Positions 1-39,394 of a stretch of 64,000 bases of DNA are shown piece by piece. Each line of letters begins with the position of its first letter. Within the stretch, counting starts at the first letter, position 1. The position numbers were made by a program, and so were the translations under genes. The notes under the pieces are model-generated. The model was not told where the DNA came from and made no database searches. It saw nothing but the letters and a program-made list of their open reading frames with translations. Origin of the DNA: a virus. The stretch spans positions 186,001 through 250,000 of the IMG/VR virus record IMGVR_UViG_3300023175_000005. The stretch is one strand, 5' to 3'.

Positions 1-2
1 TA

Positions 3-716
3 CACGGAACCAAAAGAATTGGTATGAAATTGTCAGGTGGACCTGACAGTGCAATGATTCTTTATATGATTTGTAAAAAAATAACTGATGAGAATATAGA
101 TATTGAATATATTCAACCAATTACTGCTACAGCAGATGTTAAACCATACAATATAAAATTTGCCAGAAGAGTAATTGAATGGATGCGAAATAGATATCCT
201 AATATTGAAATCAAAGATACACATTGTGCTGTATGCAGATATGAAGAATATAATTCTCGACAAGAAGAATTAGTAAGGGATTTAATTTTAAACAGAGATA
301 TTGATATTACATTTGCAGGAATTACAGCAAATCCTCCCGATGAAAAAGGCAGGAATTTTTGGCCTTGCAATCCTAAATACACTAGAGCAATTGAATTAGA
401 CTTTGACGAGCATCCTGAAGACATTTCAAATGCAGATTGGAATACAAGAGCAGTTGAAAGAGACGAACCTGATGTCGAAGTTTATTGGTCTACTTGGAGA
501 GGCAAGGACGAAAAAGTTCCAATGGTAAGACCTTTTATTAATCATGATAAAAGGAAAGTAGCAGAATTATATCATCACTACGATATTATGGAATTGTTTG
601 ATATAACAAGATCTTGTGAAAACAGAGATGGTCCTGCGCTAAACGATTTCGAAGATCATTGCGAAACAGAATGTTGGTGGTGCTATGAACGTAGATGGGC
701 CTTTGGGCGAGTTTAA
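3..716 (+). CDS. PP-loop ATPase, QueC-like (5' partial)
   Basis: A PP-loop ATP pyrophosphatase-type protein. The SGGPDS motif comes almost at once, and the reading frame stays open from the methionine at base 24 back to the window edge (H-G-T-K-R-I-G precedes it), so the true start is probably outside the window. The C-terminal part has a VRPFINHDKRKVAEL segment followed by clustered cysteines (SC, HC, ECWWC) and an R-rich end, the arrangement of the zinc site in QueC (7-cyano-7-deazaguanine synthase). QueC makes preQ0 from 7-carboxy-7-deazaguanine. FolE, QueD-like, QueE and DpdA-like genes occur between 20.7 and 28.9 kb, which fits, but this gene sits beside a radical SAM gene, so another PP-loop function is possible. 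It overlaps the next gene by 32 bases. Confidence 0.65.
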   Translation, partial: HGTKRIGMKLSGGPDSAMILYMICKKITDENIDIEYIQPITATADVKPYNIKFARRVIEWMRNRYPNIEIKDTHCAVCRYEEYNSRQEELVRDLILNRDIDITFAGITANPPDEKGRNFWPCNPKYTRAIELDFDEHPEDISNADWNTRAVERDEPDVEVYWSTWRGKDEKVPMVRPFINHDKRKVAELYHHYDIMELFDITRSCENRDGPALNDFEDHCETECWWCYERRWAFGRV

Positions 717-1620
717 GTATACAGGCTGGCACATTGAACTAACAAACAGATGTCCACTAGCATGTCCTGCATGTATTAGAACTATGCACGGGCCTGGTTC
801 TAAGTCAGACATTGATACTAAATTACTTCTCAACTTTTTGCCTAATCCTGAAAAATATGATTACATATTTTTTCAAGGTAATTTGGGAGATCCTATATAT
901 CATCCTGATTTCCACAAAATTTCAGAACATTTTTTCCCAGCAAATGAATTACAAGTTACAACAAATGGAATGCAAACAAAAGAGTTTTGGCAAAGAGTGC
1001 TAGAAACATGGCCCGAGTCTAGTATTGTTGAACTTAGTATAGACGGCCTACAAGACACTAATAGCATATACAGAGTTAACAGTAATTGGAACAAAATACA
1101 AGAACTTTTTGAACTTATAGCAACTACTAAACGCAAATGTCAGATTATATGGAAGTATATTGTTTTTGAACACAATCATCATCAAGTTGAAGAAGCAATA
1201 GCCTTAAGTAAAAAAATAGGCATGAATGAATTTAAAATTAAAAAAAGTTGGACTATACATGATGACATGTCCAATAATGGCCAAGTTAAAGACTATTATA
1301 ATCCAGAATGGTTTGATTATGTAAAAAGAGAAACACTTGACGAATTAGCACCTTTCTGTTATACTGGAGACATGCATTATATAAATTCGCAAGGTAACTA
1401 TTATCCTTGTTGTTGGATAGATAACGACATAAGTTCTGTAGGACACATATCAGAAGGTTTAGATAGTATTAAAGATAAATTTTTAAACTTTAGTAACTTA
1501 TTAATTTGGAGTAAATGTCCTAAAGTATGCAGAAAAATGTGTTGTAAAATTAGTGATAACGATAAAGAAATGATTACACCTAACAACGTTGTTGATAGAA
1601 AAATAATAGTAAATGATTGA
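685..1620 (+). CDS. radical SAM protein with SPASM-like C-terminus
   Basis: The CPLACPAC sequence (CX3CX2C, about residues 25-32) is the radical SAM [4Fe-4S] motif. A second Cys-rich region near residues 230-295 (FCYTGD, YYPCCW, KCPKVCRKMCC) resembles SPASM/twitch auxiliary-cluster domains, which are typical of enzymes that modify peptides or proteins. TNGMQT and SIDGLQDTN match core-fold segments. It resembles the radical SAM protein at 38273-39394, which has an equivalent GLEDTNHIYRRN segment and the same domain order. The ATG lies inside the upstream PP-loop gene, and the stop overlaps the TctA start (ATG-ATT-GA), so the genes look translationally coupled. The substrate is unknown. Confidence 0.85.
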   Translation: MNVDGPLGEFKYTGWHIELTNRCPLACPACIRTMHGPGSKSDIDTKLLLNFLPNPEKYDYIFFQGNLGDPIYHPDFHKISEHFFPANELQVTTNGMQTKEFWQRVLETWPESSIVELSIDGLQDTNSIYRVNSNWNKIQELFELIATTKRKCQIIWKYIVFEHNHHQVEEAIALSKKIGMNEFKIKKSWTIHDDMSNNGQVKDYYNPEWFDYVKRETLDELAPFCYTGDMHYINSQGNYYPCCWIDNDISSVGHISEGLDSIKDKFLNFSNLLIWSKCPKVCRKMCCKISDNDKEMITPNNVVDRKIIVND

Positions 1621-2902
1621 ATTAGGAATTTGGAGTGGTATCGGTTTACTAACTGGTCTTTTAGCCGGGTTAGTGCCAGGTGCTGGTCCATTTGTTGCTA
1701 TTGGTGTCTTATACCCGTTTTTAGCGTCAACTAGTGCGGTTAATATTATGGCGTGTTATGTTGCTATACTCATTACCACTAACTATACTAATAGTGTTAC
1801 AGCAATCTTATACGGTATACCCGGAGATGCTACTGCAATTAGCACAGCAAGATACGGACATAAAATGTTTCAAAAAGGCGCAGGCGGCCTTGCTGTAACA
1901 AGTAACGCAATTAGTAGCACCGTTGGTGTAGCATTTGCAATGTGTTTGTTTTTAGTTGCCTTGCCTAGTATTATGCATGTATTCAAATTTTATAACAGTA
2001 TTATACAAACAATTGTAATACTAGTTGCAATATGTATGATTACATTTTTTACAAAACAGAATAAACTTTTGACATTATTACTGTTTTGTTTTGGAGGATT
2101 AATATCACATCAAGGAATTGATCCGATTACATTTGATCAGTTTCTTGTTTTTAACAATTTTTATCTTAGTTTAGGAATACCTTTTGCAAGTGTAATGATT
2201 GGATTGTATCTGTTTCCTGAGATACTAAAAATTCATAACATTTCTATTTCCCAACCTAGCAAGATAAGTAAGTATGCAATAGGAAAAGGCACATTTGGTC
2301 CAAGCCTGTTAGGTAGCTTTATTGGATTTTGGTGCGGTCTTATTCCTGGCATAACGAATATTCTTGGTAGTTATGCTAGTGCAGGCATTGTAAAACGCTT
2401 TTTTAAAAAGCCTGTACTTAAAAGCATTGCTGCCGCAGAGGCTGCTAACAATAGTGGAGCATTATCCAGTTTGTTGCCTTTGCTAATCCTTGCTATACCT
2501 ATTACGGGTAGTGAAGTAATTGTGTACTACTTGATGTTAGAAAGTGGTTATCAATTTAATATAGAAAACACAGTAGACAAACTGTCTTCTATACTTTACT
2601 TTATACCGGTAGTGACATTAATATGTTTACTTTTAAGTTGGTATGGTTTTAACCTGTTAGGTCAAATAGTGTATCTTTATAAACAATATAGAGTATATGC
2701 AAATACGTTGATCCTAACTACTATAAGTGTAATAAGTGTCGTTATCTTTCCTATACACGAATGGATGGTAGCATGTATACTGATTGCAATGGTACTAGGA
2801 TATTTTCTACGAAATTACGATACGAGCCCAGTCATTTATGGATATTTCCTTAGTGACTTGTTCTATGAAAGTTTTGTAAGGACTGTTATAATATTATCTT
2901 AG
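1613..2902 (+). CDS. TctA-family tripartite tricarboxylate transporter, large membrane subunit
   Basis: A polytopic inner-membrane protein with about 10-12 hydrophobic segments. The ILYGIPGDATA segment followed by a glycine-rich GAGGLAV stretch, and the AEAANNSGAL...LLPLLILAIP segment, are the two halves of the TctA signature. Known TctA proteins carry out Na+-coupled carboxylate uptake with a periplasmic TctC binding protein and the small membrane protein TctB. At 429 residues it is shorter than the roughly 500 usual for bacterial TctA. A binding-protein gene follows after 8 bases. No TctB was found, so the system would rely on host TctB or work without it. A phage-borne carboxylate transporter is unusual. 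Confidence 0.8.
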   Translation: MIELGIWSGIGLLTGLLAGLVPGAGPFVAIGVLYPFLASTSAVNIMACYVAILITTNYTNSVTAILYGIPGDATAISTARYGHKMFQKGAGGLAVTSNAISSTVGVAFAMCLFLVALPSIMHVFKFYNSIIQTIVILVAICMITFFTKQNKLLTLLLFCFGGLISHQGIDPITFDQFLVFNNFYLSLGIPFASVMIGLYLFPEILKIHNISISQPSKISKYAIGKGTFGPSLLGSFIGFWCGLIPGITNILGSYASAGIVKRFFKKPVLKSIAAAEAANNSGALSSLLPLLILAIPITGSEVIVYYLMLESGYQFNIENTVDKLSSILYFIPVVTLICLLLSWYGFNLLGQIVYLYKQYRVYANTLILTTISVISVVIFPIHEWMVACILIAMVLGYFLRNYDTSPVIYGYFLSDLFYESFVRTVIILS

Positions 2903-2910
2903 GAGAAAAA

Positions 2911-3678
2911 ATGAAAAAATTTATCACAGCACTAACAGCAATGTTTATTGCAACATCTGCAAACGCAGAAATTTTAATTGTAAATCCAGGTTCAGAAGAG
3001 GGTGCTTTTAGACAAGTATTGACTGAAATTGGAAACAAAATTGATCATCAATTTGTACAGGCAAATAATCCTGTAACAGCATCAACCTATTTAGCAAAAG
3101 GCAATGCACTTACTATTTGGAGTAGTGAATGGCCTGGAGATCCTAAAATGCCATCAGTAGAAGTAAGTGAAGACACACTTGTTGCTCTAATGACATATGA
3201 AACTATGATGTGTAGTAGAGAATTTACAACACTAGAAGATCTTAACGGACAGGAAGTAAAGATTGCAACATGGGGTAGCGCACCAGTAGCGAAATTCTTA
3301 GGAAACTTAGAACAAGCAACAGGAGCAACATTTACAGTTGTACCATTTGGTGGTAGTGGTAGTACAACAAAAGGTTATCTTGCAGGTGATGCAGATACAG
3401 TGTTTACTATTACAACTAGACAAACTGCTATCGAAGAAGATGCAAACACAACATGTTTTGCATTTAGTGAAACAGGCGATCTAGGTTTCCGTTTTGTTGA
3501 TGCAATCAACACAGTTTGGCTAGACAACAACACTACAACAGAACTTCGTGCAATTGTTGGTAATTTGTCTATGACACCAGAATGGCAAGATAAGTTTTCA
3601 GGCACAAAAACTTATATTGGCGGAACACCAACAAATGTTGCTATGTTTGAAGAAGCGGTAGAAAACTTCTCACAATGA
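2911..3678 (+). CDS. periplasmic TctC-like solute-binding protein
   Basis: The N-terminus MKKFITALTAMFIATSANA is a clear Sec signal peptide with an ANA-type cleavage site at about residue 19. The mature protein is about 236 residues. The mid-protein VPFGGSGSTTKGYLAGDADT matches the region of TctC/Bug binding proteins that carries the ligand pocket and the 'gG-vd' turn, and DLNGQEVKIATWGS resembles the preceding domain-crossover strand. A strong AGGAGAAAAA ribosome-binding site precedes the ATG. The position directly after TctA argues that it delivers substrate to that transporter. It is shorter than the usual roughly 320-residue TctC, so it is divergent; a NMT1/TAXI-type binding protein is an alternative. 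Confidence 0.7.
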   Translation: MKKFITALTAMFIATSANAEILIVNPGSEEGAFRQVLTEIGNKIDHQFVQANNPVTASTYLAKGNALTIWSSEWPGDPKMPSVEVSEDTLVALMTYETMMCSREFTTLEDLNGQEVKIATWGSAPVAKFLGNLEQATGATFTVVPFGGSGSTTKGYLAGDADTVFTITTRQTAIEEDANTTCFAFSETGDLGFRFVDAINTVWLDNNTTTELRAIVGNLSMTPEWQDKFSGTKTYIGGTPTNVAMFEEAVENFSQ

Positions 3679-4196
3679 ACTTCGAAATTAGACGCCTTTA
3701 TGTAGATAATCTACCTAGTCAGATATATGACTTTATGCAGTCGTGTGCTGAACAAGGATTAGAAAACAATGTTTCAAAGGTGTCTATGAAGTTTGGTAAA
3801 TGGAAAGATGAAGCGTGGTGGTGTACTTGGGTTGACAATAAAATTGTTAGCATAAGCGGCTGCCACGCTTTTGACGATTATATACCAGATAGTTACAGAG
3901 TTTGTTTGCGCACTGCAACACTTAAAGAATACAGAGGAAAAGCACCAGGAAGTATAAAAAAGATGCATAATGATTTTAATTGGGGTCATATACTTCCTTA
4001 TCAAATTGAGTATGCTAAAAGCAAAGGTGCTAAAAGAATAGTTTTTACAACAAATAGTGAAGTTGACAAAAGTCCAAACAGTTTTAGGACCAACAGGGTT
4101 GTTGAAAAAGTTTTCATTCCGCAAGGATTGTGTAGACTTGTTGAAAAAGATGCAGAAGTCTTCTATACGAAGCAAAATATTTGGGAAGTGATATGA
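3675..4196 (+). CDS. GNAT-like acyltransferase
   Basis: A 173-residue protein with a GNAT-like layout: an N-terminal strand/helix (NFEIRRLYVDNLP), a central hairpin (WWCTWVDNKIVSISGCHAF) and the RTATLKEYRGKAPG segment, where GNAT enzymes bind the CoA pyrophosphate. The typical R/Q-x-x-G-x-G/A is only loosely kept. It is followed by AKSKGAKRIVFTTNS, like the beta5 strand. The ATG overlaps the stop of the binding-protein gene (ATGA). The substrate is unknown; its position beside the oxygenase and ATP-grasp genes suggests a modification pathway. Confidence in the fold is moderate. Confidence 0.5.
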   Translation: MNFEIRRLYVDNLPSQIYDFMQSCAEQGLENNVSKVSMKFGKWKDEAWWCTWVDNKIVSISGCHAFDDYIPDSYRVCLRTATLKEYRGKAPGSIKKMHNDFNWGHILPYQIEYAKSKGAKRIVFTTNSEVDKSPNSFRTNRVVEKVFIPQGLCRLVEKDAEVFYTKQNIWEVI

Positions 4197-4834
4197 ACGA
4201 ACAATTGATTGCAATGCAAAGATTAGCCATGATGGGAGATTGGTTAGAATTAGATGTTTTTCATCATGATAATCTTATGAAAGAAATTGAACCATTCAAA
4301 GATGATTGGAAACCATACAATACTAGAAAACCTAACAATAGATGGGGATTAAGTGTTACTAGTTTAGATGGTGGTTTGAGCGGCATTCCTGACTTAGACA
4401 GTCTTTCAGAATACAATAAAAAATATAATACTAATATTACCAATCATGACATAGACAAGCCTACACCTGTATATGAGGCTAGTCCTACATTGCAAAGCAT
4501 TTTAGAACCTTTTAAACCATGGCTAGGACGCTGTCATTTTTTAAAATTAGATGAAGGTGGCTTTTTTCCTGAACACTATGATATTAATAAAACAACATAT
4601 GATTACGATGAAATAAGATTGATTGGTTTTGTTCATAACTGTAATAAACATTTTTTAAAATTTGTTTATGAAGATACAATACCACAGTATGATGATAGTA
4701 ATTTATTCTACTTCAATGCTAATAAAAGACACACTGTTTTTAGCACAGTTGATGATTGTATTATGCTTGTTGTTTGTTTAAAATTTGATACAGGATGTTA
4801 TAAAGCTTTACTTGACCAATATATTTGCTCGTAG
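4193..4834 (+). CDS. Fe(II)/2-oxoglutarate-type (aspartyl/asparaginyl hydroxylase-like) oxygenase
   Basis: The core segment LKLDEGGFFPEHYDI supplies an H-x-D pair and a later NKRHTVFS supplies the distal histidine, the 2-His-1-carboxylate triad spacing seen in Asp/Asn beta-hydroxylase-like double-stranded beta-helix proteins. The preceding hairpin (RCHFLKL) and the following RLIGFVHNC segment fit the same fold. I take the ATG at 4193, overlapping the previous stop as ATGA, over a TTG 12 bases upstream. Many marine phages carry 2OG-Fe oxygenases of unknown substrate. Here it ends a plus-strand set and overlaps the convergent ATP-grasp gene by 27 bases. The substrate is unknown. Confidence 0.65.
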   Translation: MNEQLIAMQRLAMMGDWLELDVFHHDNLMKEIEPFKDDWKPYNTRKPNNRWGLSVTSLDGGLSGIPDLDSLSEYNKKYNTNITNHDIDKPTPVYEASPTLQSILEPFKPWLGRCHFLKLDEGGFFPEHYDINKTTYDYDEIRLIGFVHNCNKHFLKFVYEDTIPQYDDSNLFYFNANKRHTVFSTVDDCIMLVVCLKFDTGCYKALLDQYICS

Positions 4835-6127
4835 TTTATTGTTTACTGAATTATAATTATCAAATAATTCTTTTTCATTTGTTCCTGTAATATCTAAATT
4901 TACATTAAAATTTTTATCTTGTAAATTTTGAAATGCAGGAATGCGTATGCCTGTCTTTATTTCAGTGTTTTGTTTATTTAGATATGGTGTAATATTTTCT
5001 AAATTTTTTACTTCTTTAATTTTTCCAGGTTGTAATACAGCACATCCCCATAATAGTCTTTTTTGTAAATTTATTTCTTTTCCTTGCAACATATTACTAA
5101 TAATTTTGCCATCGTTCATTCTGTCTAAAATGTTAACAAATTGTCCTGGTCTTGGATTAAAGTCAATAGCAACCTTTCTACCATTGTTAAAATGAAAGTC
5201 AGGACCTGCAAAAAACATATCTTTGATTGCAAGTTTATCTACAATAGTTTGCAAGAAGAATTGACATAATCCTGGAAAATCTGTAGGAACTTCATCTGCG
5301 GTTACAATCCATACTGCACGTTCTCTAACAATATCACTTTTTTTACTTTTACTATGACTTTCTATTGGATTGCTATTATGATCTAATTCGTCGCCATATT
5401 TTATCTTACTATTTTTTACATAGAATGCAATGTTTACTTTTCCATCTTTTACATATCCGTAAGGACTAATACTAGGTTCTTCGCTCCAAATATATTCTTG
5501 AAACATAATTTTACACGGTTTAAAATTAAAACGTTGTGTATGTATACCTTGTCTGTTAAGATCAAAAAATTCATTGTGTATATTCTTAGATTTAATATGA
5601 TCTAAGAAATGATGCATGTTATTCCATCTTCTATATTCTATTACAGGATTGCTTGCATCGTCACCTGGATAAAAGACGTTACTTCCTGTACCAATGTCTG
5701 GTTTACTAAACATTTCTTTGTTTTTAAATGCTTTTAGTTGGTTGTAAAATGTAGGAGTAATACTTTTTGGTACTAGTACATCCATACCAACTTGTCTACA
5801 AAAGTCATCAAACTTCTGTTTGTTGCTCAATATTTCTGCTGCAAATGCACTTATATTTTTAATGCCGTAAAATGATTCTAGTTGTGCTTGAATAGGAAGT
5901 AAGTTTTCGCTAATAGTATAAATTCTGTCTACACAACTGAAACGTTTTGTAATTTCAAGAATGTCAAACCCTTTACAAATAAACACTTCTTGTGGTAGAT
6001 CTATAAAATGTTCATGATCTGGTGCAGGTTCAAAATCAGTTACAATACTACAATTTTTTCTTAATGCTGTAACAAGGCCTTCGCATTTGTTTAAACTTCG
6101 TTCATGTGCTATTATTAGTGTTTTCAT
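4808..6127 (-). CDS. ATP-grasp ligase-like protein
   Basis: ATP-grasp enzymes join a carboxylate to an amine or thiol through an acyl phosphate. The NISAFAAEILSNKQKF segment (about 90-106) matches the start of the ATP-grasp domain in carboxylate-amine ligases. FSKPDIGTGSNVFYP is the ATP-binding hairpin with its lysine, IMFQEYI supplies the adenine-contact strand, and AIDFNPRPGQFVNILDRM contains the Mg-binding Asp-x-Asn-x-Arg motif. The total of 439 residues fits single-chain amino-acid or peptide ligases. It overlaps the hydrolase gene upstream by 26 bases and converges on the oxygenase gene. The product is unknown. Confidence 0.75.
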   Translation of the reverse strand: MKTLIIAHERSLNKCEGLVTALRKNCSIVTDFEPAPDHEHFIDLPQEVFICKGFDILEITKRFSCVDRIYTISENLLPIQAQLESFYGIKNISAFAAEILSNKQKFDDFCRQVGMDVLVPKSITPTFYNQLKAFKNKEMFSKPDIGTGSNVFYPGDDASNPVIEYRRWNNMHHFLDHIKSKNIHNEFFDLNRQGIHTQRFNFKPCKIMFQEYIWSEEPSISPYGYVKDGKVNIAFYVKNSKIKYGDELDHNSNPIESHSKSKKSDIVRERAVWIVTADEVPTDFPGLCQFFLQTIVDKLAIKDMFFAGPDFHFNNGRKVAIDFNPRPGQFVNILDRMNDGKIISNMLQGKEINLQKRLLWGCAVLQPGKIKEVKNLENITPYLNKQNTEIKTGIRIPAFQNLQDKNFNVNLDITGTNEKELFDNYNSVNNKLRANILVK

Positions 6128-6761
6128 TTATATCATGCTTTATCATATTCATACACATTATATACGCATTTTCAGAATATTGCAACCTAATTTTTTCTTC
6201 TTTGTACGGATATTTTTGTATAGTTTTTGACATGTTAAATGTATTTTGTCTAGTATCTTCTTCTAATGGAATTATTGGCTTGATAACTTCAAATGAATTA
6301 TTTTTGTTCATAAAGCCGTGATAGCAATTTGCAAGCCTAATATGGCTGATGTTTTTTGCTTGATCGCAAAATTCAGTTATGTTATCACACCAATTGTCTA
6401 GTTCTGCACTGTAGACTGTAGTGTTTGAATAATCTTTTGATAAAGTTTCTTTTGTAAAACCTAGCATACCTGGATAAAATATATGATTACTAACAAACTT
6501 TTCTGAATGAACTAACCCTAAATATCCACCTAAACTTAATCCAATGTGTATGCATTCGTCCGGAAAAGGAATATCATAGATCATTTCTTGTAGTGTAACA
6601 TCATGTTCATCTTCTAATGTCCAGTACAAGCAATCTATACCGTGCGGGCTAAAGTAATCATTTAAGATTACTTCATGCCCTAATTCTTCAAATTCTTTTT
6701 TAAGTTTTAACTCACAATTACCAATGCCCCCACTTCCGTGAGATATTACAATTGGTAACAA
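6102..6761 (-). CDS. alpha/beta hydrolase (dienelactone hydrolase-like)
   Basis: A nucleophile elbow GLSLGGYLG (Ser about residue 95), an oxyanion-region HGSGGIG at the N-terminus, an acidic residue in AELDNW and a late CYHGF histidine give the serine-hydrolase order of an alpha/beta hydrolase. The gene starts with TTG directly after the tail-fibre stop (GCA-TAA-TTG), and its end overlaps the ATP-grasp start, so the two are probably co-translated. The C-terminal tail of about 60 residues after the catalytic His is polar and unlike the core. The substrate is unknown; partnership with the ATP-grasp enzyme is inferred from gene order. Confidence 0.6.
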   Translation of the reverse strand: MLPIVISHGSGGIGNCELKLKKEFEELGHEVILNDYFSPHGIDCLYWTLEDEHDVTLQEMIYDIPFPDECIHIGLSLGGYLGLVHSEKFVSNHIFYPGMLGFTKETLSKDYSNTTVYSAELDNWCDNITEFCDQAKNISHIRLANCYHGFMNKNNSFEVIKPIIPLEEDTRQNTFNMSKTIQKYPYKEEKIRLQYSENAYIMCMNMIKHDINENTNNST

Positions 6762-8738
6762 TTATGCAGCCGTACCATCGTCTAAATTAATCCAAGCACC
6801 GTTTTGATAACCTTGGAATCTGTCTACTGATTCGTTGTAAATAACCATGCCGTTGACAGCAGTTAATGCATTTCTATTTGCTGTTGTGTATTGACCAAAC
6901 TGTATGTAGCCACCTGATGTGATAGTATTTTCTACAGCATCTACTATAATTGTAGAATCGTCAGCAACTAAACTACCTTTAAACGCCGACGCTGTAACAT
7001 CACCCTCAAAAATACCTGAACCATTAACATCTAATTCTGCACTAACAGTTGCTTTACCAATACCTACTTTGATTTGATCTGAATCGTTTGTTGTAAACAT
7101 AACAAACTTTTCGTCAATTGTCAAATCGTTGTTTTTAGCAACACCTATGAATAATGCATCGTGTCCAGCTGTAATTTTGGAACTATTGATATCCCCGTCA
7201 ATATCTGATATTGCGCCAAATTTTATTTCGCCTCTGATATCATAAACTCCGTCATCTAGTGCTGCATCTGCTTTATTCTTTTTGAGATCTAATTGCATTC
7301 TTCCTTCAAAAGAATTAAATTGAATAACTTGATCACCTGTTGTTTGCGATCTGTTTTCAAATAAAACTGTTAAATCATTTGGCAACCATCTAGTAAAGTG
7401 CATTTCTGATAGTTCTACTGATGTTAAACTAACAGATGCTTCGTCGTATAAGTCACCGAATGTATTACCAAATAAATCACCTTGGAAAACTCCTGTCGGT
7501 GAACATTCAAAAGCACCTATAAATAAATTTCCTGTAAAAGTTTTATCCGCTGCATTTACTATTACTGCTGAATCATCTGCAATAACATTACCTTGCACGT
7601 TACCATTAAGTTGATTACTTACACCATCAACAAGTATTGTAGAATCTTCGCCGATTAGATTACCTTGTACATCAATGGTATATGTTTGTCCGTCAACAAT
7701 ACCAATAGTAGGAGGAAAATTAAACAATCCGCTTGCATCACCCGTTACTCTATCAAAGTTACCAGTTGTTGCGTTAACTTCTTCAAACTTTGTTCCTACT
7801 CTACCAATTTTACCTGTTCCGCTAACAACAGGGACAACATCTTTGTTGTTTAAAAAGTTTACACCGTTGACGTTAACAGAGCCACTTGGTGCAGTAATAT
7901 CTATGTTTTGATCTGGTGATGTAATAACACCACTGCCTGTGTATTCTGTATCTGCTCTTAATTTTCCTGCAACAGAATCTACCATTACAAAACTACTGTC
8001 TGAGAAAATACTACCTGTAACGTCACCATCTAACGGACCAAAAATTTGATCAGCTTCTATATTACCGTTGAAGAATGAATTTCCGGTAATTGTTAATCCT
8101 AAACCAGCAAACGTTTGATTTGTTGCATCTAACAATAATGTGCTATCATCAGCAACAATGTTGATATTATAGTTACCACCACCTACAACACCTTCACCGC
8201 CACCTCCGCCAGTACTTGGAAGATTTGTTAAAAGACTACCGTCACCTACAAAAAAGTTTGCTGTTACTGTTTTAGAGAACGTATCAACCATAATAGTTGA
8301 ATCATCTGCTACTACATCACCTGTAATACTAATATCATATGTTTGGCCTTCGAGGATGCCTGTGCCTCCTCCTCCTCCGCCTGTTACTGGTAAGTTTGTA
8401 AGTCCGCTACCGTCACCTACAAATGACCCTGCGGTAACAGAACCAGTTGCTGTCATTGTATTTGCGCTAACATTAGCAGCAGCAGCAACTGATGTAGGAC
8501 TAATAGTACCACCGATTGTGATATTACCTGTACCTACAATGTCAAAGTTATTAAGATCTAAATTTTGGCTTAGTACTGCTGGGGAACCACTTACACTACC
8601 TGTAACTCTGATACCGCCTAGTGTGCTGCCATCGCCCACGTAAATTTCTTGTGTATCAGTTGTGTAAACTAGTTCGCCTTCTGCAAACGTAACGCCCAAC
8701 CTTTCAAGGTTTGTTCCGCGGCGAAGTCTCAATGTCAT
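6762..8738 (-). CDS. repeat-rich tail fibre / receptor-binding protein
   Basis: A 658-residue, Gly/Thr/Asp/Val-rich beta-structured protein. The N-terminal 45 residues (RLRRGTNLERL...GELVYTTDTQEIYVGDG) are the adaptor domain found at the start of many marine-phage tail fibres. Six copies of a (A/G)(D/E)DSTIhVD-like unit occur near residues 145, 197, 247, 363, 388 and 600, and three GDGSxLTNLP-like units near 108, 165 and 333. These are separated by two glycine runs and probably form a triple-stranded beta-helical shaft. The end, GMVIYNESVDRFQGYQNGAW, is a common fibre C-terminal motif. It presumably binds the host surface. Its start lies under a hairpin/late-promoter element (8747-8792). Confidence 0.8.
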   Translation of the reverse strand: MTLRLRRGTNLERLGVTFAEGELVYTTDTQEIYVGDGSTLGGIRVTGSVSGSPAVLSQNLDLNNFDIVGTGNITIGGTISPTSVAAAANVSANTMTATGSVTAGSFVGDGSGLTNLPVTGGGGGGTGILEGQTYDISITGDVVADDSTIMVDTFSKTVTANFFVGDGSLLTNLPSTGGGGGEGVVGGGNYNINIVADDSTLLLDATNQTFAGLGLTITGNSFFNGNIEADQIFGPLDGDVTGSIFSDSSFVMVDSVAGKLRADTEYTGSGVITSPDQNIDITAPSGSVNVNGVNFLNNKDVVPVVSGTGKIGRVGTKFEEVNATTGNFDRVTGDASGLFNFPPTIGIVDGQTYTIDVQGNLIGEDSTILVDGVSNQLNGNVQGNVIADDSAVIVNAADKTFTGNLFIGAFECSPTGVFQGDLFGNTFGDLYDEASVSLTSVELSEMHFTRWLPNDLTVLFENRSQTTGDQVIQFNSFEGRMQLDLKKNKADAALDDGVYDIRGEIKFGAISDIDGDINSSKITAGHDALFIGVAKNNDLTIDEKFVMFTTNDSDQIKVGIGKATVSAELDVNGSGIFEGDVTASAFKGSLVADDSTIIVDAVENTITSGGYIQFGQYTTANRNALTAVNGMVIYNESVDRFQGYQNGAWINLDDGTAA

Positions 8739-18972: not shown

Positions 18973-19001
18973 AATATAACACACAAACACCCAAATGTCA
19001 A
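18973..19001 (-). promoter_or_regulatory. sigma70 promoter
   Basis: TTGACA (19001-18996), a 17-base spacer and TATATT (18978-18973) on the minus strand, 34 bases before the ATG at 18939. It overlaps the last codons of the radical SAM gene. Confidence 0.75.
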
Positions 19002-20233
19002 TCTTTTAAAAAACCAAATTCAGGATAAAGATCTAAGAATTTTGTTGCTCTTGTACTGTCAAAATAATCCAACATGTATCTAAAATAATCACGTTGTTTA
19101 TCTGATAAAGTTTTTTGTGGCTCCGTTTTAATCCAATCTAACCAGTTGTAGTCGTCTATTAGGTTTAAAGTTTTTAACTCTGGTAAGAAAGTTTCAATTT
19201 TTTTTACAATTTCAATTCTGTAATCAATGGGTGAGTTGGCAAAATGTAATGGCTCTGGCCAATCTAAAAATGTTGTATTAAAAGGAAACTTATTTTGTTT
19301 AATAAAGTCAAGCAAATTTGGCAAATCTTTTAGATTTAGCAATTGTATTGTAGGCTCTAAGGTAATTTGAAAATTCTCATATTGGTCGCATATTTTTTTA
19401 GATCTTAAAATCTTGCTTTCCAATGCAGACCAAGAACTAGGGTATCGAACATATTCTAAAACTTTTCCAGTAGCATCCAAACTTATTGATAAGTTTACAT
19501 GCTTAAACTTTGTAAGGTATTTTTCTATCCATGATTCTTTGATAATTGTGCCATTTGAAATTATGTGTACCTTTATATGACCGCTTTCTTTTCTATTCAC
19601 TAATTCTTCTATCAAAGATGTAAATCCCTTCATCACAAACGGCTCGCCGCCGACTGCCATAATCTCTTGAGTTCTTTTTGCATTTTCAAGTATATGGTCA
19701 ACAAATCGCTGGTTGAAATTATTAGATGATGTAGAAAGAACTTCTAGGTCTTTACTATTGGTATAAGGATTGCTTTTGCCGAATTTATTATATTCTAGCA
19801 TGTTCTTTGCAATTTGATTGCTCAATGTAGGGTTACACATCACGCACTGCAAGTTACATTCGTTGCTCATTCTCAAATCAAAACTCAGAGGACTAGGAAC
19901 AACTGTATGGGCATTTTTATAATAATAATCGGCTAATGATTTCCATTTATGATTTTCATACTGTCGGTTTGAAATGATTCCCTGTTCTTCACTTTCAATA
20001 CAACTTTTACAGATATTTTTAGGGATGATTCTTTGATTGAATTTGTGTCTTAATTTTTGTAAAGTCTTGCTGTTCCATACTTCATCGACATCCTTGCCTA
20101 GAATATTAATATCGTCTGAATCTAATTGTTTTGCATAACAACAGGCTTTCATATGCCCTGTTGTTGTCACAAACATTTTAACAAAAGGATGGACACAAAA
20201 ATTTTTGTATAAATCTTCTATTTCATTCGTCAT
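18998..20233 (-). CDS. twitch-domain radical SAM protein
   Basis: 411 residues. An N-terminal auxiliary-cluster region (FCVHPFVKMF, HMKACCYAK, ICKSC) precedes the radical SAM core with CNLQCVMC (CX3CX2C, about residues 132-139), GGEPF (SAM-binding GGE) and SNGTI. This order, Cys-rich domain first, is the same as in 37225-38394 and differs from the SPASM-type proteins. Radical SAM enzymes with twitch or SPASM domains usually modify peptides, proteins or sugars; nothing in the sequence says which here. It lies between the nuclease-like gene and the QueE region. Confidence 0.85.
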   Translation of the reverse strand: MTNEIEDLYKNFCVHPFVKMFVTTTGHMKACCYAKQLDSDDINILGKDVDEVWNSKTLQKLRHKFNQRIIPKNICKSCIESEEQGIISNRQYENHKWKSLADYYYKNAHTVVPSPLSFDLRMSNECNLQCVMCNPTLSNQIAKNMLEYNKFGKSNPYTNSKDLEVLSTSSNNFNQRFVDHILENAKRTQEIMAVGGEPFVMKGFTSLIEELVNRKESGHIKVHIISNGTIIKESWIEKYLTKFKHVNLSISLDATGKVLEYVRYPSSWSALESKILRSKKICDQYENFQITLEPTIQLLNLKDLPNLLDFIKQNKFPFNTTFLDWPEPLHFANSPIDYRIEIVKKIETFLPELKTLNLIDDYNWLDWIKTEPQKTLSDKQRDYFRYMLDYFDSTRATKFLDLYPEFGFLKD

Positions 20234-27244: not shown

Positions 27245-27433
27245 CTAAGTTCTTTTTCCGAGCGCAATGATATTCTCCAGTCTGTGTATTTCGTCTTTAT
27301 ACCAAAGTTTTTTTGTTTTTAATTTCCTAATTGCGTCATCTACAATGTATGATTTTTCAAGTTCAATAATTTCTTCATCTAGTTTTCTGTGCTTTCTTTT
27401 CAGTTCGACTAAATGTTCTTCATGTCCCATCAT
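27245..27433 (-). CDS. DUF465/YdcH-like coiled-coil protein
   Basis: 62 residues. HRKLDEEIIELEKSYIVDDA and LKTKKLWYKDEIHRLENII match the H-x-L-D-E-x-I and LK-x-x-K-L-x-L-K-D-E-I pattern of DUF465 (YdcH), a small helical hairpin family of unknown role. ATG-coupled to the DpdA-like gene. Confidence 0.55.
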   Translation of the reverse strand: MMGHEEHLVELKRKHRKLDEEIIELEKSYIVDDAIRKLKTKKLWYKDEIHRLENIIALGKRT

Positions 27434-28890
27434 TACAATTCCTCGAATAGATTGTTAAATTGCGTTTGAGCATTTACAATACGCTTGCCTGTATTGCCTC
27501 TAGTACCTATAATACTATCCCAGTATCTAGAAAATTCTAAAATGACAGCCTCGGCTTTTTGTCTGTCATCAGTTTCAAAAATTGCATCAACAACATCTCT
27601 AAACGCAATTCTATCAAATTTTTCTTGTATCAACATATTAGGAATAATACCTGCGTCATATTGACGGTTTGCTTCTTGTACAGCATTAATGTGCATCCAT
27701 ACATTGTGACCCATCATAATTGCATACGAGAAACTATCCCATGAAGTTTTTCCTTCTTTACCGATCTTATTTAGATCGCCCGGACCGTATATACAAATTT
27801 CTTTTGCTTGTAGTCCTGTTGTTATAGGCGAATCTAAGAAACTAGGATGTTTTCCTTCTCTAACAAAAGCTTGTCCAAAAGCAGTTGTATCATTTGCAAG
27901 TGCTTTGTCGTCGATACTAGGTACCATTCTATATACCCACTTGCTTCTATCTTCTGTTTCTAGTTCACAGTAAATCTGTCCATTAGCAGTTGCAAGGAAA
28001 GGCGAAGCACAATCAAATGTAATAGTAAAGTTTTCGTTATGATATTTGCGCACTGCTCTTTGAATGTCAGTGAGCAGTGTAGCCCACTCTAGTTTTGAAG
28101 TTCCTAAGAAGTGCATGAAATCATGTTTGCCTTTTTCAAGCAATCCGTCAAAACGTAACGCAACAACACGTTTAAGTGCTAGGTGTACATCGCACATATT
28201 TTGTCCACCCATTGACCATCCGTTGAAATGATCTTCATATTTTTTAGGATCACAGTAGTCTTTCATTTGATCGTACCAGTCATCTGCGTCTGCATGATTC
28301 TCGCCTTGTAGTACGTTCAAAAACTTACAAGCACCTGTACGATGCTTCATCCAGTAGTCATTATTAATACGTGTTGCTTTAACTGCTTCTTGGTAAGTTG
28401 AAATGCCAGTTGCTTTTGCACCTGCAGGCGAACGTGCAACCCATGCCGGAATATCAAGGATCATACCGTAGTCCATATAAGCATCCATCCAACGCAGTAC
28501 GCCATCACGTTTCTTTTGTGCCTTTGGACAGTTTGGATCTTTCCAGTCACCTTCCCAAACACCCTTACCAATCTGGAAGCCACCTGAGTCGCCAAGTAGC
28601 CAAGTGTTTGCTCTGTCTCTGTTACGCACCATATCTTCCTTAGGTGCATGTTTTGTAGTATCTAAGTCAGCATGTCCTGCTGAGTATAATGTCCACTTAT
28701 ATTGAAACTGTCCTTGATCTTTATTTAGATAGTTAAGACTTTCAACACCATTATTTAAATTACTAGGTATTCTAGCAGGGTCGACATAGTTTTCAAAACG
28801 CTGTTTGCCTACGTAAGTAGCATAAAAGCCACTCAACGCGGGCAGAAAAACAGCATAGTCATTTTGTGTTGCAGTTAAATTTGTATTCAT
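27433..28890 (-). CDS. DpdA-like DNA 7-deazaguanine transglycosylase (TGT family)
   Basis: 485 residues. LLGDSGGFQIGKGVW (about residues 97-111) is the D-S-G-G-F-Q signature of tRNA-guanine transglycosylases and DpdA, with the catalytic aspartate. FNGWSMGGQN is the GG-loop, and LDIPAW and FDCASPF fall where the second acidic residues of the site lie. DpdA enzymes swap guanine in DNA for a 7-deazaguanine and protect phages from restriction. The whole precursor pathway (FolE, QueD-like, QueE, QueC-like) is in the window, so DNA is the likely target. Confidence 0.75.
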   Translation of the reverse strand: MNTNLTATQNDYAVFLPALSGFYATYVGKQRFENYVDPARIPSNLNNGVESLNYLNKDQGQFQYKWTLYSAGHADLDTTKHAPKEDMVRNRDRANTWLLGDSGGFQIGKGVWEGDWKDPNCPKAQKKRDGVLRWMDAYMDYGMILDIPAWVARSPAGAKATGISTYQEAVKATRINNDYWMKHRTGACKFLNVLQGENHADADDWYDQMKDYCDPKKYEDHFNGWSMGGQNMCDVHLALKRVVALRFDGLLEKGKHDFMHFLGTSKLEWATLLTDIQRAVRKYHNENFTITFDCASPFLATANGQIYCELETEDRSKWVYRMVPSIDDKALANDTTAFGQAFVREGKHPSFLDSPITTGLQAKEICIYGPGDLNKIGKEGKTSWDSFSYAIMMGHNVWMHINAVQEANRQYDAGIIPNMLIQEKFDRIAFRDVVDAIFETDDRQKAEAVILEFSRYWDSIIGTRGNTGKRIVNAQTQFNNLFEEL

Positions 28891-36374: not shown

Positions 36375-37241
36375 CTAACATAGTATTTTATTCAATCTGT
36401 TTTGTTGTATATGTTTAATTTCATTTTCCGGCATTCTAGCAATGACATCCAAATAAAATTGCGGAACAAGTGATTTATTTTTAATAATGTTATATACTAA
36501 ATTTTTATTGTAGTCAATCTCTTTTTGATCAATTTCTTTAGGAAAATTTTCAATACTTTCTATAAAAAGATCAACCCTGTTGTCAACATCTTCGTCATAT
36601 CTATAATCTACTCCAGTGTATGGTTTGAATCCTAGAGATTGTAAAAATTTATTGAATCCTGGTGCAGCAAATGTAATGAAAGGTTTGCTACAAAGTAAAG
36701 GTCTAACGGTCTTTTCTGTAATAAAAATTCTCTCTACAGATGTTTCTAATACAACATCAAATCTTGATCTTAAATATTGCATAGGTAAACTATATTGCTT
36801 ATCGATATCTGTCCATCCTTTATGAAAAGTTAGAAATGCATTATTATGCAAATTTTTACTTTTTATTTTGTCTATAATTTCGATTCTATGTGGCCTTGCT
36901 ATATTATTCATGCAAGCAAAATTATATTTTATTGGTTGTTTAGAAATTCTATCTACCAATCGATAGGCTGTGTAATTAAACCAATATGTTGGCCAATAGT
37001 ATATATTCATATTTTTTATAGGATATAATTTTGTATAATCGTACCCAGGTGCAGATCCTAATACAATATATACTTCTATGTTATTATCATTAATTATTTG
37101 GCAACAGTTTTTATATTCTAACCAACATTGATCCTCATGTTGGGCAAATATTACAATATGCTTTGGCAACTTTTTATTGTTAAGTAGGTATACAATCCTA
37201 TCAATATCAAAGTCGTGCCAAACATCAAAAAACCATGTCAA
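36375..37241 (-). CDS. GT10-like glycosyltransferase
   Basis: 288 residues. The C-terminal SVERIFITEKTVRPLLCSK with PFITFAAPGFNKFLQSLGFKPY resembles the donor/acceptor region of fucosyltransferase-like enzymes. The N-terminal half has a Rossmann-like pattern (HIVIFAQHEDQCW, IEVYIVLGSAPG). It is a paralogue of 13271-14182. Its stop is near the window's only run of AT-rich gap here and its start overlaps the radical SAM gene upstream. Substrate unknown. Confidence 0.55.
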   Translation of the reverse strand: MTWFFDVWHDFDIDRIVYLLNNKKLPKHIVIFAQHEDQCWLEYKNCCQIINDNNIEVYIVLGSAPGYDYTKLYPIKNMNIYYWPTYWFNYTAYRLVDRISKQPIKYNFACMNNIARPHRIEIIDKIKSKNLHNNAFLTFHKGWTDIDKQYSLPMQYLRSRFDVVLETSVERIFITEKTVRPLLCSKPFITFAAPGFNKFLQSLGFKPYTGVDYRYDEDVDNRVDLFIESIENFPKEIDQKEIDYNKNLVYNIIKNKSLVPQFYLDVIARMPENEIKHIQQNRLNKILC

Positions 37242-38394
37242 TACAAGTACCTCTGAATTTATCTAAATGTTTTTGGTAACTCATGCCTTGTTCAAAGTGT
37301 TTTATATTACGTTCTCGAGTAACTGCCGGTAAGCTTCTTTTAAGATCTTTATACACATCGCATAAGTCTATATAAATTTGTTTATGATCATCAGGTGCAT
37401 GACACGGTGCAAATTCTTTAGGACTGTTCACAGGATAAACTTCCCATCTTTCAAAATTATTTGACATAATCCATTCACCTAGTGATTCCATATGTTTTAC
37501 GTTAATCCAACTTACAGTTGTACAGACATCACTTGTACCAATTTGTTGTGCTTTTGCAATGTTTTTTATAATTTTATCCCAATTGCTAGGATACCTAATA
37601 TATTCATTTATTTCTTTATAACCGTCAATGCTAAAATGCCACTCCACATCAAATTTTTCTAAAATTGAAAGTAGTTTAGTGGGTAAATTGTTTCCGTTTG
37701 TAGTTATACGTAAACTAGGTTTGCTATCATATACTAAAAGATATTCGCAAAACTTTTGAAGGTAATTGTTTACAGTTGGTTCTCCACCTGTGAAACGTAT
37801 TTCATCTCTATCGTGTAAAAATTCAGCAAGTTTTTGTAAATTGTTTTCGTCTTCATACCATACATCAAACGAATACTTGTGTCTTTGTATTAGTTTATGT
37901 TGTATACCTTGGCTATCTAGTTTTGTAAGTTCTGCATCTATAAGACTGCTGTTCACAGGACCGCACATTGAACACGAAAGATTACATTTGTTTCCAAATT
38001 TTATTTCAGCGTCTTTACGATTGTTTCTATACTTTCTTTCGCTTTGCAATCGTAAACTTTCAAAGCCGTAAGATTCTTCTTCTTTACAATCTCTACATCC
38101 TTCGGGAAATATTCCATTATCAAGATCTTTCTTAACACTTGCTAAAAAGTCACTGTCTTTGTATTTTTCAATATCTGAAACTTTTACAAGATCTTTTCTG
38201 TCGCGGTCGTCCCAATTACAGCAAGGGCGTAAATTACCCAAAGTATCCATGCTGATGTGATTATCTAGCCATTTACACTTCTTCGGAGAGTTCGAAGAGT
38301 TTGTCAATTTCTCTGACTTTTCCACAGGATTTTCCGCACTGGACCCAGCATTGACTGATTGATTTTGATTGCCAACTGTCTGAATAAACTGCAA
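37225..38394 (-). CDS. twitch-domain radical SAM protein
   Basis: The frame is 389 codons. After an N-terminal part lies KCKWLDN...LRPCCNW and GCRDCKEEE (auxiliary Cys region), then the core with NKCNLSCSMCGP (CX3CX2C) and TGGEPTVN. It has the same domain order as the protein at 18998-20233. The start is uncertain: TTG at 38394 has a GGAGG site but makes a 122-base overlap with the next gene, giving a Ser/Asn-rich 35-residue leader; TTG at 38307 is an alternative. It lies between a glycosyltransferase and another radical SAM gene. Confidence 0.8.
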   Translation of the reverse strand: MQFIQTVGNQNQSVNAGSSAENPVEKSEKLTNSSNSPKKCKWLDNHISMDTLGNLRPCCNWDDRDRKDLVKVSDIEKYKDSDFLASVKKDLDNGIFPEGCRDCKEEESYGFESLRLQSERKYRNNRKDAEIKFGNKCNLSCSMCGPVNSSLIDAELTKLDSQGIQHKLIQRHKYSFDVWYEDENNLQKLAEFLHDRDEIRFTGGEPTVNNYLQKFCEYLLVYDSKPSLRITTNGNNLPTKLLSILEKFDVEWHFSIDGYKEINEYIRYPSNWDKIIKNIAKAQQIGTSDVCTTVSWINVKHMESLGEWIMSNNFERWEVYPVNSPKEFAPCHAPDDHKQIYIDLCDVYKDLKRSLPAVTRERNIKHFEQGMSYQKHLDKFRGTCIDMVF

Positions 38395-39394
38395 GTACGC
38401 CTCCGTCTATAATTTGATCAAGTCTATGATGATGTAAATTGTTAGCATCACCTAGTGCTTTTTGTAGTGTTTGCATTTCTCTTGCTTCAGGAACATATCT
38501 AGGACCTTGCATTTTATTTCCTATAAAGCAACAAGGATGAACTCTTCCCAATGCATCTATATATAGTTCAACCATTGGTTCTTCATGGTATGGATATGGC
38601 AAAGTTCTAAAACTATTACAGGCAATAACGCCTTCTTCTTTAACAGGTTCTGGCAAATCTGCTTCCCAACCTAATGGAGCAGGTGTATAATGGTCATGTC
38701 CGTAATCAGTAGCATGTTCTAACACATATTCTAAGTTATAGTCTTTGTCGTATGCAGGCATACCTGTTCCATCTACACCAAATGGATTTTTTAACACAAA
38801 ATTGATACCATTTTCTTCTGCAATTTTTCTACTGAGTTCAACTTGATGTTTGTTGTGTTTAAATTGTAAAAAGTCCCAATCAGTATGCGCACCTGTATAT
38901 GCATAGGCAATCATGTTATTCCATGCTTTATCCCAAATAACATTTCTTCTGTATATATGGTTAGTATCTTCTAAGCCGTCTATACTAAATGTAATTTTAC
39001 GCATTGGTTTTGGATCTAAACCATTTGTTGTTTCTATAAACAGTTCTCCTATTGCACGGAAATGATCCGGAGTACGCAAACCACCATTTGTGTTAATTTG
39101 TATAGTTGCTATACTGTTAGAGCATATATAATCTAATATATCATATATGTCATTACAGGCCAATGGATCTCCATGTGTTCCGCAAAATATCCAACTTTTA
39201 GATTTTTGTACAAGATCTAGTGGAAACCATCTTTTAAACAAATCAATTGTAATATCAGTCTGCACAACTTCCGGATCGACATTAGTGCTATTACGTAAGA
39301 ATCTTGGACAGCCTGGACACGCTGCGTTACAACGTGTACTTAATTCTACGTGGAAAGCATTTAAATCGTTATAATTCCATGCATTATACTTCAT
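38273..39394 (-). CDS. radical SAM protein with SPASM-like C-terminus
   Basis: 373 residues. CNAACPGC (CX3CX2C, about residues 22-29) is the cluster motif; FCGTHGDPLA, TNGGL and FSIDGLEDTN follow in core order. The C-terminal third has VHPCCFIGNK, ISQCWVQCGKSC and similar Cys pairs of an auxiliary-cluster domain. It is related to the protein at 685-1620. A late-type GATAAATA (39399-39406) lies only 5 bases before the ATG. Modification target unknown. Confidence 0.85.
   Translation of the reverse strand: MKYNAWNYNDLNAFHVELSTRCNAACPGCPRFLRNSTNVDPEVVQTDITIDLFKRWFPLDLVQKSKSWIFCGTHGDPLACNDIYDILDYICSNSIATIQINTNGGLRTPDHFRAIGELFIETTNGLDPKPMRKITFSIDGLEDTNHIYRRNVIWDKAWNNMIAYAYTGAHTDWDFLQFKHNKHQVELSRKIAEENGINFVLKNPFGVDGTGMPAYDKDYNLEYVLEHATDYGHDHYTPAPLGWEADLPEPVKEEGVIACNSFRTLPYPYHEEPMVELYIDALGRVHPCCFIGNKMQGPRYVPEAREMQTLQKALGDANNLHHHRLDQIIDGGVLAVYSDSWQSKSISQCWVQCGKSCGKVREIDKLFELSEEV

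Follow-up and report, generated by a model that had tools for sequence, protein, structure and literature searches.

A viral gene module that links a putative, exchangeable solute importer to an ATP-grasp ligase and a 2OG-type oxygenase

The subject of this analysis is a 64,000-nucleotide stretch of viral DNA (the window; positions 186,001 to 250,000 of the 256,558-base IMG/VR virus record IMGVR_UViG_3300023175_000005, here called G000), and in particular a transport and enzyme module near its beginning. Across related viral contigs, a TctA-type permease, a solute-binding protein (SBP) and an ATP-grasp ligase are conserved together, with a 2-oxoglutarate (2OG)-type oxygenase nearby. The importer of this module is exchangeable, in that the TctA-SBP pair can be replaced by a transporter of another type while the ligase and the oxygenase stay. 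We give an even chance to the proposal that the four genes allow the phage, during infection, to take up a single type of small molecule and convert it, with the importer as a plug-in. The earlier note on this DNA had described positions 3-6761 as one cassette of six biosynthetic or modifying enzymes with an importer; its observation is partly confirmed and its interpretation partly supported. The core genes are listed below, and positions here and throughout are those of the window unless a record is named.

1613..2902, plus strand: TctA-type permease, 429 amino acids (PF01970, E 2e-57, 195 bits against a cut-off of 28.9)
2911..3678, plus strand: predicted secreted SBP, 255 amino acids, TctC/Bug fold (AlphaFold2 model compared with the PDB), signal-peptide-like N-terminus
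4181..4834, plus strand: putative 2OG/Fe(II)-type oxygenase, 217 amino acids (H132, D134 and H184 kept in all of 22 aligned proteins)
4808..6127, minus strand: predicted ATP-grasp ligase, 439 amino acids, best fold match an L-amino-acid ligase (AlphaFold2 pLDDT 89.5, pTM 0.90)

Viral contigs were queried separately with profiles of the ligase, the SBP and TctA (A2, A1 and A3), after a scan with a single TctA protein; the best 80 of 92 relatives were used from the SBP scan, and the alignments omit L005 (all three) and L072 (SBP alignment) from the representatives. All four core genes occur in 63 of the 101 contigs tabulated. The others carry ligase and SBP (13), ligase, SBP and TctA (10), ligase alone (4), oxygenase and TctA (4), ligase, oxygenase and TctA (3), ligase and oxygenase (2) or SBP alone (2), and most of these incomplete sets stop at a contig end. 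Oxygenase matches below 60 bits were left out of this table, and those below 200 bits out of the flank counts. Where at least 4 kb of sequence flanks the gene on both sides, TctA is accompanied by SBP and ligase in 43/43 cases, SBP by TctA and ligase in 37/37, and ligase by TctA and SBP in 38/40, the two exceptions being contigs L029 and L030. Two architectures are found. In one, TctA and SBP, sometimes preceded by a receptor gene, face the ligase, and the oxygenase lies upstream or, in the group of G000, between SBP and ligase; in the other, oxygenase, TctA and ligase face the SBP. The strongest sign that the four genes are a working unit is that their content survives this rearrangement. All eight genes of the locus are, moreover, more than chance reading frames: they are under purifying selection, with dN/dS of 0.03-0.12 between the window and its relative L005 (91.5-98.5% DNA identity).

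The exchange of the importer is seen in L029 and L030, in which an OpuAC binding protein (E 3.6e-38) and an ATP-binding cassette (ABC) permease (BPD_transp_1, E 5.5e-28) occupy the TctA-SBP slot. Both contigs retain the genes for ligase, hydrolase, oxygenase, methyltransferase and B12-type radical S-adenosylmethionine (SAM) proteins, and the methyltransferase and B12-type radical SAM proteins of L029 are 80-83% identical to those of G000. The swapped-in permease is closest to choline and ProW (glycine-betaine) permeases, below their equivalog cut-offs. Since L029 and L030 share the same gene coordinates and identical OpuAC proteins, they probably represent one phage; a third contig, L218, shows the same arrangement with an OpuAC protein 78% identical. 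No ATPase gene was noticed beside the pair, and no search was aimed at one.

L029:11310-13183 and L218:7995-9872: the swapped-in pair, an OpuAC binding protein with a ProW-like permease, at the TctA-SBP slot

In the permease of the window, the PF01970 match spans domain positions 3-418 of 423. Its relatives in viral contigs are 49-100% identical, and phage TctA proteins measure about 419-430 amino acids, against 500-675 in the 20 bacterial proteins compared. The bacterial search covered 398 genomes of one phylum, 55 of them with a match at E 1e-30, and at most four first-look candidates were scored per genome; there, the phage TctA profile gave the best bacterial protein 144 bits and two phage-type copies 658-677 bits. 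In a TctA tree with 20 phage and 20 bacterial sequences, the phage proteins fall on one side of a very long branch (support 100/100). The phages collection yielded no ligase relative at E 1e-5 and four TctA matches, all with less than 30% identity across 41-54% of the protein; these come from a Salmonella whole-genome shotgun record and from three records of 2.3-6 kb that have no annotation. The sole bacterial-genome match for the ligase is L215, an 8.9-kb contig of a Rhodobacteraceae metagenome-assembled genome that bears the full module and relatives of the phage radical SAM and PP-loop genes. A second phage-type TctA, with an in-frame TAG, is present in the same genome bin (G014:C173:11755-13014). 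L215 was rejected as a bacterial source or as proof of a host: because of the full module, the phage-gene relatives and this second contig, it is read as phage DNA in the bin.

Searches of PDB sequences with the SBP and ligase profiles gave nothing credible, so structure models were needed for both proteins. The SBP has no Pfam match by sequence. Its AlphaFold2 model (pLDDT 80.7, pTM 0.78; residues 149-159 poor) finds TctC/Bug-type proteins in its top 11 PDB matches, for some of which we presume this family, with Z 12.1-14.5 and a root-mean-square deviation (rmsd) of 3.4-4.6 over 226-232 residues. The best are TphC (Z 14.5), Polaromonas TctC (14.2) and Bug27 (14.1), and other binding proteins follow from 11.1 down. 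A loose AxA-like pattern lies near the N-terminus in 20/20 aligned proteins. As the ligands in the titles of the TctC/Bug entries are carboxylates (terephthalate, oxoadipate and malate), the solute of the modelled SBP is most likely a carboxylate.

The ligase, likewise lacking a Pfam match, is modelled with an ATP-grasp fold over the whole chain (Foldseek E 1.4e-16). The L-amino-acid ligase 3vot is matched at Z 24.7 (rmsd 3.9, 355 residues aligned) and PurK structures at 24.0, within 1 of 3vot; from the model, carboxylate-amine ligase activity is likely. The oxygenase, which has no Pfam match, is assigned from its motif: the HxD...H spacing is found in 22/22 aligned proteins and corresponds to the iron triad of 2OG/Fe(II) oxygenases. 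In L050, a contig that ends just after the ligase of the module, adjacent genes for an IscU-like protein (E 6e-52) and an A-type carrier (E 3e-20) of iron-sulphur assembly are present (L050:3852-4543); IscU (NifU_N) was not found in 13 records searched.

Taken as an import and conversion system, the module would act as follows. In the periplasm, the secreted SBP would bind a solute, most likely a carboxylate, and pass it to the inner-membrane permease of TctA type. Some relatives also have a BtuB-like TonB receptor, which may carry the solute, or a corrinoid, across the outer membrane. Inside the cell, the ATP-grasp enzyme would join a carboxylate to an amine, and the 2OG-type oxygenase would hydroxylate the ligase product or a related molecule, so as to give a product of putative use to the phage. 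Of this picture, the gene content, the linkage, two of the folds, the swap and the purifying selection rest on data, and the import itself, the class of the solute, the action of both enzymes on the imported molecule and the use of the product are inferred.

Several observations weigh against such a system. The Foldseek list for the SBP is led by Bug27 (E 9e-8) and then contains many other type-II binding proteins and regulators, and the TctC domain itself (PF03401) was unmatched in G000 at E 10 in a search that was positive in 6/14 controls. TctB (PF07331) was unmatched in G000 (E 10) and in the 13 related records (E 0.01), although this weak model, over its cut-off in only 3/14 controls, may miss true members; lacking a TctB match, the transporter departs from the canonical tripartite system. 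Importers of the TctA and ProXW types usually serve different classes of solute, and it is therefore not obvious how one ligase would act on both imports. The pool of contigs is redundant, and each of them was retrieved by querying with one or other of these genes. In favour of a unit, the 58 contigs with four complete proteins, those with incomplete proteins having been left out of the divergence comparison, represent 31 non-redundant versions (mean difference above 5%), and the four core proteins diverge in step, with r 0.90-0.94 between their pairwise distances; shared descent of whole phages would equally give this correlation. The oxygenase is found within 4 kb of TctA in only 26/43 cases, of SBP in 22/37 and of ligase in 24/40, because many contigs with the TctA-SBP order have it at a distance of 4-8 kb. 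With 9-kb flanks it is present with ligase in 13/13, SBP in 18/18 and TctA in 15/17 cases, being missing in L186 and L191 even at that distance.

The main rival explanation is that independent auxiliary genes share one hot spot but have separate tasks. The transporter would aid nutrient uptake by the host, like cyanophage pstS, the ligase and oxygenase would serve another task, e.g. the modification of the neighbouring tail protein or of the cell surface, and the linkage would reflect an accessory region near tail genes. Such an arrangement is possible, though we lean against it. Tail-like genes do flank the module in many contigs (labelled by eye, Pfam having been applied to the tail protein of the window only), the type of transporter changes while the enzymes stay, and the oxygenase is often several kb off. 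A hot spot, however, accounts poorly for a core that stays through two gene orders and wide divergence while other genes of the region come and go, or for the fact that no ligase with 4-kb flanks lacks a transporter (38 with TctA-SBP and 2 with the OpuAC-ProW pair). The adjoining gene of the window is the following.

6762..8738, minus strand: tail protein with a major-tropism-determinant N-domain (PF18454, E 7.6e-9)

Two further explanations concern the breadth of the system and the place of its action. That all the listed enzymes form one compact biosynthetic or peptide-modification pathway, as the earlier note proposed, is improbable. The genes are packed in G000, their order is kept in the four contigs closest to it and in L005/L006-type relatives, and the genes upstream in the run encode radical SAM proteins of the cobalamin type together with a methyltransferase and a redoxin, a mix that occurs in peptide-modifying clusters; but the PP-loop, GNAT, hydrolase and radical SAM genes are not conserved with the core, a 49-kb record (G013) has the core without any radical-SAM match, and no precursor peptide lies between the genes. 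Envelope interference, in which the secreted SBP and the receptor would serve as decoys or as a block to superinfection instead of importing anything, is very unlikely. Both proteins are predicted to be exported and TonB receptors are common phage receptors, yet a permease and a cytoplasmic-type enzyme accompany the SBP in every one of the 37 contigs with 4-kb flanks, and the swap keeps a matching pair of binding protein and permease.

A TonB-dependent BtuB-like receptor is encoded directly 5' of TctA in all 18 contigs of this set that carry the receptor. Three of these were compared with NCBIfam, and TIGR01779 (BtuB) was the best family for each (L009, E 3e-53; L172, E 1e-52; L008, the weakest, E 3e-27), at best with 181 bits against the equivalog cut-off of 599.7; the single receptor searched against the PDB, that of L009, matched BtuB at E 6e-30. 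A separate receptor scan gave 17 loci, 10 of them with the TctA module. Cobalamin-type radical SAM genes lie upstream in 8 of these 10, and in the other 2 the contig ends first. Of the 7 module-less loci, 4 have the receptor directly beside a gene for a B12-type radical SAM protein, L233 has no such gene and 2 are cut by the contig end. In the 4 positive cases (L229:8001-11002, L228, L227 and L225), the two genes are end-to-end and no TctA module is seen. They amount to about two observations, since L227-L229 are close relatives and the B12-type radical SAM profile used for this count was built from two of the proteins themselves, those of L229 and L225, in which the B12-binding domain scores below the Pfam cut-off (E 6e-6 and 0.045). 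The receptor can be dispensed with, for G000 encodes B12-type radical SAM proteins and yet lacks a plug domain of such a receptor. A line across the envelope can be imagined from the BtuB-like receptor, the TctC-fold SBP and TctA, whereby the receptor would bring a corrinoid for cobalamin-type radical SAM methylases of the phage and the exchangeable inner importer a carboxylate for the ATP-grasp enzyme and oxygenases, leading to a product; we regard this as doubtful. In the passages retrieved for btuB, the literature offered only one on a riboswitch of the host. Vibrio phage K566 (OZ196521.1:144820-180190) has NAD-salvage genes, named by its depositors as PnuC-like and nicotinamide phosphoribosyl transferase, near several radical SAM genes; it was set aside as an annotated relative, its radical SAM genes standing in a different setting.

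The remaining genes of the locus are optional beside the module.

1..716, plus strand: PP-loop (QueC-like) protein (QueC 22.4 bits, cut-off 22; SGGPDS)
685..1620, plus strand: radical SAM protein with a SPASM-like end (CX3CX2C; TIGR04317, E 3.3e-15)
3675..4196, plus strand: GNAT-like protein, 173 amino acids (PF00583, E 0.097, under the cut-off)
6102..6761, minus strand: alpha/beta-hydrolase-like protein (GLSLGG motif, no Pfam match)

In its longest frame, the PP-loop gene begins at G000:185973, 28 bases before the window. The radical SAM protein stays under both the Pfam and the NCBIfam cut-offs, and far below the TIGR04317 equivalog cut-off; the GNAT-like protein has a relative in L218 with 60% identity, and GLSLGG is presumably a nucleophile-elbow-like motif. 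Near the module, the family of the window's radical SAM protein is found in at least 27 of 102 contigs, that of its PP-loop protein in 6, of its GNAT in 7 and of its hydrolase in 11, all lower bounds given that one locus was counted per contig and many contigs end early; a second PP-loop-like family occurs in 5 more family members. Two records with core genes and few radical-SAM matches (0 or 1), G013 and G012, are both fragments of 42-49 kb. Conservation among related contigs, which the earlier note had offered as the test of its pathway, thus holds for TctA, SBP and ATP-grasp, with the oxygenase nearby, and fails for these four families. The note was correct that the cassette has no obvious precursor peptide, as no gap within 24-6761 could hold one, although no search aimed at short peptides was made in the upstream run. 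A conserved small open reading frame (ORF) family, f5, found near the module in relatives, was rejected as a precursor peptide: its alignment has the look of any small globular protein, and no match to the family occurs in G000:110001-250000.

All eight ORFs of the cassette are present and packed, with overlaps or gaps of no more than 8 bases between neighbours; the plus-strand and minus-strand halves converge with an overlap of 4808-4834, as the note had stated. Its view that the phage carries a transporter together with enzymes that modify small molecules or peptides also stands. The assignments behind it are uneven, the ATP-grasp enzyme resting on fold, the oxygenase and hydrolase on motifs and the GNAT on E 0.097, and the importer is refined to a TctA permease beside an SBP that the note left unnamed. 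Its limits of 3-6761 mark only the tail of an enzyme array, and both the swap and the outer-membrane receptor were missed. The cassette genes form the 3' end of a plus-strand run of about 55 kb, which starts near G000:136.4k, after large genes that look structural (putative, by appearance), and ends at window position 4834; because the run extends about 50 kb upstream of the window, the cassette limits are arbitrary and cut a slice from a larger island.

G000 is a T4-like phage record, with a T4-type Gp23 capsid protein that is also found in 8 of the 13 related records, the 5 without a match being records of 42-91 kb. Pfam Radical_SAM gives 21 matches in G000 at E<=1, in 20 ORFs, 16 of which are over the cut-off and 17 of which lie between 140 and 187 kb. 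These ORFs extend over G000:140375-187128, mostly upstream of the window, with others at window 18998-20233, 37225-38394 and 38273-39394. Three have B12-binding domains over the Pfam cut-off, and a redoxin stands between two of these. The 91-kb related fragment to which L029 belongs has 20 radical-SAM matches at E 0.001. Elsewhere in the window, a protein at 27433-28890 is 36% identical to one annotated as hypothetical in the Pseudomonas jumbo phage PA5oct and its relatives.

Phage nutrient genes have usually been described singly, whereas here an SBP, a permease and possible processing enzymes are kept as one unit. Such a unit, its importer open to exchange, speaks for phage chemistry that depends on a particular molecule from outside, and the purified SBP would offer a direct handle on the identity of the imported molecule. 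The module also gives a context to viral tctA genes that have stood unexplained: tctA and 2OG-oxygenase genes were described in SUP05 phage contigs, and the passage concerned calls the role of tctA unknown (PMC4164917). Both genes are listed in an excerpt of a review (PMC6359870), and tricarboxylate transport is noted near a viral norB/nirK scaffold (PMC8115048). The relatives in the literature are marine.

In the open-access literature searched, supplements excluded, the four-gene module was not found. The SUP05 and norB/nirK contigs share the same functions, and the relevant passages (PMC4164917, PMC8115048) mention no SBP, ligase, fixed linkage, swap or receptor. The genome of a marine T4-like phage in which 12 radical SAM genes were reported (PMC5332604) resembles G000 and its 20 ORFs in having a radical SAM array, with no mention of an importer module in the part concerned. 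The BtuB vitamin B12 receptor is the closest NCBIfam family of the tested receptors, yet these fall far below its equivalog cut-off. The L-amino-acid ligases (3vot, RizA and BacD/YwfE) match the phage ligase in fold over the whole length, with an identity of only 10-14%. To the tripartite tricarboxylate transporters (TctA/TctB/TctC; Bug), finally, the phage module is alike in its full-length TctA domain and adjacent TctC/Bug-fold SBP; it differs in that no TctB was found, in its shorter permease and in its tie to an ATP-grasp ligase and an oxygenase.

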